Notes under the pieces: generated by a model
Seen by the model: the letters and a program-made list of their open reading frames with translations, nothing else
What the model was told of the DNA's origin: nothing
Database searches by the model: none
Shown: positions 1,785-37,644 of the stretch, piece after piece
Layout of the letters: every line of letters begins with the position of its first letter
Position numbering within the stretch: the stretch's first letter is position 1
Translations under genes and position numbers: made by a program
Origin: Haloarchaeobius amylolyticus
GTDB taxonomy: Archaea > Halobacteriota > Halobacteria > Halobacteriales > Natrialbaceae
Length of the DNA: 64,000 bases
Reading direction: 5' to 3'
Assembly (NCBI RefSeq): GCF_026616195.1
Contig: NZ_JANHDH010000001.1
Span: 1,674,001 to 1,738,000, forward strand

Positions 1785-1902
1785 GGCGAACAGACGACGA
1801 TGGCGGGGTGGCGCGAACGGGGTCGCCGTGCAACCGCGGACCCGTCCGCGTCGATGAATCAGGGCACACCGCGCATGGCCGCGGCCTCGTACTTGAACCG
1901 TC
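1785..1902. repeat. intergenic element, copy A of two
   Basis: A stretch of 118 bases that begins immediately after the DUF5787 stop codon with GGCGAACAGACG and ends TCGTACTTGAACCGTC. The same two ends, 119 bases apart, occur at 37526-37644. The interior is diverged but alignable (GCGCGA-A/G-CGG near the 5' third, TCAGG in the 3' half). It contains a perfect 6-bp hairpin with a CCCG loop near 1839-1854 (CGCGGA/TCCGCG). The last two bases overlap the stop codon of the convergent gene. Nature unknown; a structured RNA or a dispersed repeat are both possible. Confidence 0.5.
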
Positions 1903-3649: not shown

Positions 3650-4993
3650 TCAGTGGTCGTGGTCGTCGTGGTCGTGGTCGTGGTCGTGGTCGTGTCCGCT
3701 CCCGTCACCGGCGACGAGCGCGTCGCTGTCGTCCATCATGTCGAGGTTCTTCAGGTTGTCACGCTCCTCGAAGTCGGCGACGGCCTCCTCCAGGTCCTCC
3801 TGCGTGAGCGTCGTCCGCTCCTCGGTGAGGGCGTCGAGTACGGCCTCGCGCATGACGAGCCGGAGGTCGCTGCCGGTCAGCCCCTCCGTGATGTCGGCGA
3901 TGGCCTCGGGGTCGAACTCCTCGATGTCCATCGCCCGGGTGATGATGCGGAGGATGTCCGCGCGCATCCCGTGGTCCGGCTTCGGGAAGTTGACGATCTC
4001 GTCGAAGCGCCGCCAGGCCGCCGCGTCGAGCTGGTCCGGGTGGTTGGTCGCGCCGATGAGGAGCACGTCGTCCTGGATGAGCGAGACGTCGTCGATGCTC
4101 TTCAGCAGGGTGTTGACTGCGCGCTTGATGGCGTTGTGCTCGTCCCCGCCGCGGGTCTTCGCGACGAAGTCGAACTCGTCCATGAACAGGATACACGGCG
4201 AGAGCCGCTTGGCGACCTCGAAGGTCTTCTCGACGTTCTTGGCCGTCTCGCCGAGGTACTGGCTCGTGATCATCGAGAGCTTCACCTCGACGAAGGGCAG
4301 GTCGAGTTCGTACGCCAGCCCCTTCGCGGCGGAGGTCTTCCCCGTCCCCGGCGGGCCGACGAACAGCAGTTTGCCGATCTCGCGCAGGCCGATCTCCGCG
4401 AGGTAGTCGCGGTGCTCGATGGCCTTGACGACCTTCTGGATCTCCTCCTCCTGCTCGGTGGTGAGGACGATGTCGTCCAGCGTCTGGTCGATCTCCTCGG
4501 GTGCCCGGATGTCCACGAGGTCGAGCATCTCCTCGTCCTCCTCGTCCTCGAACATCTCGTCGAGCAGCGAGTCGATCCAGACGCGGTCGGCCTGGATGGG
4601 CCGGTTGGCATCCCGGGCCGACCCGTAGCTCACGTCGACGTCCTCGTCGTCCTCGAAGGCGGACGCGAGCACGGGGTTCTGGAGGAGCATCGCGTCGTCC
4701 GCGCGCTCCTTGAACCAGCGCTCGGCCATCTCCGGCTGCGTGAGGTTCAGTTTCCCGGAGAACTCGTCGCGGTCGGTGAACATCAGGTCGGAGACGGCGT
4801 CCCACGGGTGGTCGATACCCGTGGCCGCGCGCGCCGTCTTGTTCGTGACCGTGAGCGGACGCTCGACCGTCCCGTCGGTGTAGAAAACCCGGCGATAGCG
4901 AGGGGGAAGGTCGTTCTCGTCCAGCGCACGGTCGTTCGTGTACACGTGGGCTGTCAACAGGAACTCGACGACCGATAGCGCCGCGGTACTCAT
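3650..4993 (-). CDS. AAA-family ATPase with His/Asp-rich C-terminal tail
   Basis: A 447-residue AAA ATPase. The N-terminal 150 residues are acidic and of unknown fold. The ATPase module has Walker A GPPGTGKTSAAKG (about residue 213), Walker B ILFMDEFDF (about 268), sensor 1 GATNHPDQ and a Cdc48-like small domain (EGLTGSDLRLVMREA). The protein ends in alternating His and Asp (about 14 residues), a probable divalent-metal-binding tail. The ATG at 4993 is preferred over an upstream GTG at 5014 because a TTAAG box lies 28-33 bases before it, as in a leaderless mRNA. It is cotranscribed with the PhnP-like hydrolase. Confidence 0.85.
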   Translation of the reverse strand: MSTAALSVVEFLLTAHVYTNDRALDENDLPPRYRRVFYTDGTVERPLTVTNKTARAATGIDHPWDAVSDLMFTDRDEFSGKLNLTQPEMAERWFKERADDAMLLQNPVLASAFEDDEDVDVSYGSARDANRPIQADRVWIDSLLDEMFEDEEDEEMLDLVDIRAPEEIDQTLDDIVLTTEQEEEIQKVVKAIEHRDYLAEIGLREIGKLLFVGPPGTGKTSAAKGLAYELDLPFVEVKLSMITSQYLGETAKNVEKTFEVAKRLSPCILFMDEFDFVAKTRGGDEHNAIKRAVNTLLKSIDDVSLIQDDVLLIGATNHPDQLDAAAWRRFDEIVNFPKPDHGMRADILRIITRAMDIEEFDPEAIADITEGLTGSDLRLVMREAVLDALTEERTTLTQEDLEEAVADFEERDNLKNLDMMDDSDALVAGDGSGHDHDHDHDHDDHDH

Positions 4994-5018
4994 TCCCCGT
5001 AGCGTACTTGCCACACGC

Positions 5019-37525: not shown

Positions 37526-37644
37526 TGGCGAACAGACGGCACGAACCCGATACGCGCGAGCGGTGTGCCGTACACCCGCTGCCCCTCGCGCGGTGGCTGG
37601 TCAGGACATGGCGAGGGTGGCCGCGGTATCGTACTTGAACCGTC
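37526..37644. repeat. intergenic element, copy B of two
   Basis: A 119-base stretch beginning GGCGAACAGACG and ending TCGTACTTGAACCGTC, as in copy A at 1785-1902. A perfect 7-bp pairing, CCCTCGC with GCGAGGG (about 37580-37617), encloses ~20 bases; a weaker pairing exists at the matching place in copy A. A second, bulged stem (AGCGGTGT with ACACCCGCT) occupies the 5' half. It begins 19 bases after the tsr3 stop and ends 80 bases before the L40e start. Confidence 0.5.

Follow-up and report, generated by a model that had tools for sequence, protein, structure and literature searches.

Phage lambda bar RNAs are two-codon minigenes that can tie up ribosomes or transfer RNA (tRNA), and retroviral readthrough signals place an H-type pseudoknot about 8 nucleotides (nt) past a stop codon. 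Haloarchaea exchange DNA freely, their leaderless transcripts are translated from a start codon at the 5' end, and the Sulfolobales protein CedB is HerA/VirB4-like. Ribosome-associated untranslated small RNAs (sRNAs) are known from Haloferax volcanii (rancRNA_s194, PMC6104027; sRNA_61 and others, PMC12482152), and pilus genes serve DNA import both in the Ups/Ced system of the Sulfolobales, where they are co-regulated (PMC11868833), and, with a TadA-like ATPase, in actinobacterial Flp-pilus transformation (PMC4322843). A 64,000-nt stretch of the Haloarchaeobius amylolyticus genome (the window; contig NZ_JANHDH010000001.1, positions 1,674,001 to 1,738,000 of the forward strand) was analysed here for two similar intergenic elements, copy A (1785-1902) and copy B (37527-37644). 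These elements almost certainly belong to a multicopy family of structured RNAs encoded on the minus strand. The reading that we favour, with moderate confidence, is that of a co-regulated family of sRNA genes that engages ribosomes through a start-X-stop mini open reading frame (mini-ORF) and forms part of a pilus and DNA-processing regulon; its hypothetical parts are marked as such below.

As in the lambda minigenes, a start codon, one further codon and a stop lie towards the 5' end of a small RNA, but those bacterial minigenes have neither this pseudoknot nor this promoter, and the middle codon of the haloarchaeal element is not conserved. The order of stop, short spacer and H-type pseudoknot is that of retroviral readthrough signals, except that here no frame is conserved beyond the stop and linker lengths are not confined to multiples of three. 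Like the ribosome-bound sRNAs of H. volcanii, which are untranslated or without a detected product, the predicted transcripts are small intergenic haloarchaeal RNAs in the range of ~70-110 nt; compared by description, however, the consulted accounts of those sRNAs mention no pseudoknot family, start-X-stop frame or multicopy set (PMC6104027, PMC12482152). The Ups/Ced and Flp programmes (PMC11868833, PMC4322843) resemble the haloarchaeal set, with its probable co-regulation and putative DNA transport, in that their pilus genes are co-regulated and used for DNA import, whereas no sRNA family belongs to those programmes as far as these sources describe them, and the promoter signal differs.

Structure and strand of the RNA family

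The original prediction had proposed two intergenic regions of 118 and 119 bases, ~36 kb apart, with a common 12-base start, a common 16-base end and a nearby box. A search of the window placed the start (GGCGAACAGACG) at 1785-1796 and 37527-37538, the end (TCGTACTTGAACCGTC) at 1887-1902 and 37629-37644, and the box (TGGCCGCG) at 1876-1883 and 37618-37625. The distance between the copies is 35.7 kb; the length of 118 bases was correct for copy A, and copy B is likewise 118 bases long rather than 119. When the whole genome was searched inexactly with the 16-base end, 58 places matched, compared with 15 in the reversed control, and several additional full copies were recognised among these matches on reading them. 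A first covariance model was then built on a 94-base core from seven copies of this genome, A and B included, with the GGCGAACAG box held out. In the 4.6-Mb genome it had 42 matches at E<1e-3, ~36 of them full elements and six matching through a shared promoter half only, and nearly all of the ~36 full elements nonetheless carry the GGCGAACAG box that lay outside the model. Copy A was matched at E=1e-24 and copy B at 4e-24. Since the model finds 42 places in the genome, the similarity of A and B is more than two chance matches, as had been argued from the two copies.

The anatomy of the element was read from anchored alignments of 96 and later 136 copies. Its right-hand conserved end is a TATA box in reverse orientation (in this genus TTCAAGTACGA, elsewhere TTTATATACGA), TCGTACTTGAACCGTC being the reverse complement of the TATA sequence. 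In the helix cells of the 136-copy alignment, G-U pairs far outnumber A-C pairs (53 vs 11); from this asymmetry and the orientation of the TATA box, the RNA is placed on the minus strand, and a plus-strand RNA was ruled out on the same two grounds. On the minus strand, the layout is a TATA box (-30 to -23), a CGCGGCCA box (-16 to -9) and RTG at +1. After RTG-NNN-TGA come 7-8 nt, helix strand P2a (from ~+17), the loop GCGGKTG, P1a, P2b, a linker that is mostly 7-10 nt and at most ~80 nt long, P1b, and the tail CTGTTCGCC (CUGUUCGCC in RNA form), directly after which conservation ends. The conserved 3' end noted earlier and the nearby TGGCCGCGG are promoter sequence (the TATA box and the box at -16 to -9), not RNA or transposon ends.

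Helices P2 and P1 cross and so constitute an H-type pseudoknot, which replaces the single stem previously placed in the 3' half; a simple plus-strand hairpin there is superseded by the two crossing helices. For the covariation analysis, an alignment was prepared from which the linkers were cut out and for which sequences were picked for good P1 and P2 pairing. This selection biases the percentage of paired cells (94.5%) upward and touches the double changes, found at 14 of 16 pairs, and the shuffled control less. The covariation score was 0.590, compared with 0.186 after shuffling and 0.05-0.12 in slid controls, none of which exceeded 0.115. When 3' strands were exchanged among the 136 copies, the pairs formed dropped in P1 from 6.64 of 7 to 4.42 and in P2 from 7.82 of 8 to 3.92; with registers re-optimised, the exchange null had means of 5.5 (P1) and 6.8 (P2), with standard deviations near 0.05. 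RNAalifold independently recovered P2, with double-changed pairs throughout. In 107 of 136 copies, the outermost pair of the pseudoknot falls between +16 and +18. Compensatory changes therefore exceed the shuffled and slid controls, as is expected of a structured noncoding RNA gene. Both descriptions offered earlier hold: the elements encode a structured RNA, and they are small and dispersed insofar as they form a multicopy family.

In copy A, the predicted RNA is 83 nt long and runs on the minus strand from +1 at 1867 to the conserved end at 1785. Its TATA box (TTCAAGTA, 1890-1897), placed by a base profile of 87 copies, starts 30 nt upstream of +1, and its CGCGGCCA box (1876-1883) is kept both in the 87 copies and in leaderless protein-gene promoters. 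The aligned mini-ORF, GTG CCC TGA, forms the 5' end of the RNA (1859-1867). Covariation delimits the strands of P2 (CGCGGACGGG, 1841-1850, and CCCGTTCGCG, 1812-1821) and of P1, which crosses it (ACGGCGA, 1823-1829, and TCGTCGT, 1794-1800), and the tail CTGTTCGCC, which is the earlier GGCGAACAG read backwards, occupies 1785-1793, with a drop in conservation beyond it. Copy B, likewise on the minus strand and predicted from the anchored alignment to give an 83-nt RNA (37609 to 37527, +1 at 37609), has its TATA box TTCAAGTA at 37632-37639 by base profile and its CGCGGCCA box at 37618-37625 by conservation. Its aligned mini-ORF reads ATG TCC TGA (37601-37609); the covarying strands are CGCGCGAG (37585-37592) and CTCGCGCG (37553-37560) for P2, and ACGGCAC (37565-37571) and GTGCCGT (37536-37542) for P1, and the conserved tail CTGTTCGCC lies at 37527-37535. 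No poly-T terminator was seen downstream of the tail. Comparison of the tail, loops and 5' end with the organism's own 16S and 23S ribosomal RNA, made without a statistic, gave only short pairings, none of which was judged notable. One further locus (G060:C1:177894) carries a tandem duplicate of the tail region CGCGTCGCCTGTYCGCCCAATC.

The predicted promoter and its candidate regulon

A base profile of 87 copies gave T at a frequency of 0.92 at -30, T at 0.91 at -29 and A at 0.83 at -27. Weaker matches to the covariance model led to leaderless protein genes whose promoters match that of the RNA genes in TATA box, CGCGGCCA box and distance to the start codon, and the RTG of the RNA sits exactly where the leaderless start codons sit behind this promoter. 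By sequence, each RNA gene thus has a promoter of its own, with TATA and CGCGGCCA at a fixed distance from +1 as in the leaderless protein genes, and copies A and B would be RNA genes each transcribed from its own minus-strand promoter. The promoter pattern occurred at 37 places in the genome against three for the reversed pattern, at 35 against two in Halomarina halobia, and at ten against none in one Haloferax.

Protein genes behind the promoter were named by Pfam and NCBIfam. In H. amylolyticus they encode a TadA/ComGA-like T2SSE ATPase, pilin-like proteins, a DUF7310 protein, an archaeal pilin and DUF7382; a HerA-like ATPase, a MinD-like ATPase, a Cas4-like nuclease and a NucS_N/Top1-zinc-ribbon protein; and a PLD-type nuclease with an apparent signal peptide. 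One operon-like cluster (C2:630000-639635) combines a T2SSE/TadA-like ATPase, a membrane protein of 581 amino acids and several pilin-like or single-transmembrane proteins, and has three sRNA-type promoters. The same promoter was found at MinD-like, HerA-like, NucS-like and pilin-like genes in Halomarina and at Cas4-like and DUF7382 genes in Haloferax, the Cas4-like (DUF83) nuclease gene having an sRNA-type promoter in both Haloarchaeobius (G000:C1:1921606) and Haloferax. It is very likely that the RNA genes and the listed protein genes have this promoter in common. Because of the common promoter, the RNA is probably made when the pilus and DNA-processing programme is on; that the sequence acts as a promoter, that the RNA genes are transcribed and co-regulated, and that the genes behind it form a regulon is what we infer from the arrangement. 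The promoter suggests that a TadA/ComGA-like pilus and HerA-, MinD-, Cas4- and NucS-like proteins belong to one conserved haloarchaeal gene set, a candidate route by which haloarchaea move DNA. A role of the RNA itself in DNA uptake or exchange is offered as a tentative hypothesis.

The two-codon frame and possible ribosome engagement

RTG-N3-stop stands at the start of the RNA in 123 of 136 copies, a leaderless two-codon ORF of the form RUG-NNN-stop. A search blind to the mini-ORF, which used only the promoter box, the pseudoknot and the tail, yielded 114 copies, 100 of them with RTG-N3-stop; as stops, TGA occurred 96 times, TAA four times and TAG twice. Among orthologues at the same sites in sister species, the middle codon and the linker differ, as do many bases of the stems, but RTG, stop, pairing and tail are mostly kept.

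We hypothesize, giving the idea an even chance, that the RNA engages ribosomes through this frame. The 5' RUG would load a 70S ribosome, as any leaderless haloarchaeal mRNA does, and once a single peptide bond had formed the stop codon would enter the A site. By toeprint, a 70S ribosome on a start codon covers ~15-16 nt downstream (PMC6104027), and a pseudoknot at ~+17 would therefore begin at the ribosome edge. The immediate stop and the pseudoknot may hold or recycle the ribosome at the 5' end with the fold not unwound, and the RNA would occupy or sample ribosomes, acting in trans as a ribosome-associated regulator that is expressed together with the pilus and DNA-processing genes. The family is a direct test case of whether a leaderless start-X-stop frame and a pseudoknot hold a ribosome. 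A wider version of the proposal is more speculative: the RNAs could be an order-wide archaeal class, with dozens of genes, that loads the ribosome via the leaderless frame against the pseudoknot and serves as the RNA component of competence or DNA exchange within an undescribed pilus and DNA-uptake regulon defined by CGCGGCCA.

Several observations weigh against ribosome engagement within a common regulon. About 10% of copies lack RTG and have ATC, ATT, ATA, GTA or ACG in its place (mostly AUH or ACG), TGC replaces the stop in two copies, and coding alone does not account for the C found just before the stop in 111 of 123 copies. The promoter pattern hardly exceeds its control in a second Haloferax (5 vs 4). 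The RNA is missing from many Natrialbaceae and other genomes, and is therefore not essential to the regulon.

Given the copies without RTG and the near-constant C before the stop, a structural role of the motif may hold. On that account, which we regard as possible though doubtful, the RNA is a structured trans-acting sRNA that makes no use of the ribosome; RUG-NNC-UGA is a 5' RNA- or protein-binding motif, with target contact through either the variable linker or the GCGGKUG loop. An avoidance of G at +4 and the conservation of loop and tail without an assigned partner also agree with it. Departures at codon 3, however, are mostly the other stop codons, TAA or TAG, and this speaks for translation more than for a fixed UGA motif. 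The copy at C1:61358 retains an in-frame stop one codon later (ATG CCC CCG TGA), and the position of RTG, exactly that of leaderless start codons, argues in the same direction. At a separate locus (G070:C1:724132), an sRNA-type promoter is followed by ATG ACC TGA and then by a long inverted repeat (TAGTGATTATCGTAA ... TTACGATAATCACT) in place of the pseudoknot.

Distribution and genomic setting

A covariance-model search of this genome and of other haloarchaea, the check that had been suggested, recovered many copies and orthologues, so that further copies and homologues, far from being absent, are both numerous. Five sister Haloarchaeobius species, H. iranensis among them, have 33-44 model matches apiece. 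With a promoter-free model, 154 of the 293 Halobacteriales genomes sampled had the RNA core, and among 247 genomes sampled across the phylum none outside the order had it. DUF7310 scored over its cut-off in ~145 of the 154 genomes with the RNA and ~63 of 139 without it, a hand count uncorrected for shared ancestry. Two clear copies were present in each of 15 Haloferax genomes searched (15/15), and Haloferax is a model genus in which deletion of two copies is feasible. In H. volcanii the two copies are expected at the orthologues of one locus that, by our reading, lies between a DUF63-like and a YcaO-like gene and of another beside a HAD-like gene. The highest numbers in a 20-genome search, promoter-only matches included, were 58 in Halomarina halobia and 45 in Halobellus rufus.

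The RNA family is previously uncatalogued. An Rfam 15 scan of the window gave no match at the element, only a tRNA elsewhere, and a scan of eight loci from relatives with copies gave nothing up to E=1. No description of the family was found in the literature, a literal-sequence search included, within a coverage that took in only a minority of subscription papers and no sRNA supplements. The family thus adds to the archaea a large structured RNA family that is so far unlisted.

Spread as a small non-autonomous mobile element, either a miniature inverted-repeat transposable element (MITE) or one derived from IS200/605, could explain the copies. Copy number ranges from two (Haloferax) to dozens, the sites are not common to different genera, and neighbouring genes differ. 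The two ends of the element, however, are promoter and RNA tail and not inverted repeats of each other, and the copies are highly diverged yet keep their compensatory pairs. Within Haloarchaeobius the sites are syntenic, with orthologous sequences diverged to 57-92% identity. All copies in the H. amylolyticus genome lie on contigs C1 and C2, with no model match on contigs C3-C6, a quarter of the genome. One exact family pattern searched in viral contigs gave no match, and the features looked for in MITE and IS200/605 elements (terminal inverted repeats or subterminal hairpins, recent transposition) were not found. A mobile element is therefore very improbable. Two family copies (G000:C1:2284862 and 2286754) lie 1.9 kb apart on opposite strands.

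A cis-acting leader or riboswitch for the downstream gene is slightly less probable still: a same-strand gene follows the tail in 35 of 135 copies, but in the other 100, A and B included, the gene beyond the tail is convergent, which refutes the idea for most copies, and apart from sporadic pairs no neighbouring gene was conserved between genera in the collected copies. Two short chance matches can be set aside, for although a 12-base match with one mismatch does occur by chance in so GC-rich a window, family-wide homology and covariation refute this explanation. Elsewhere in the window, an ATPase-like ORF on the minus strand (3650-5014) has a C-terminal histidine/aspartate repeat (HDHDHDHDHDDHDH).
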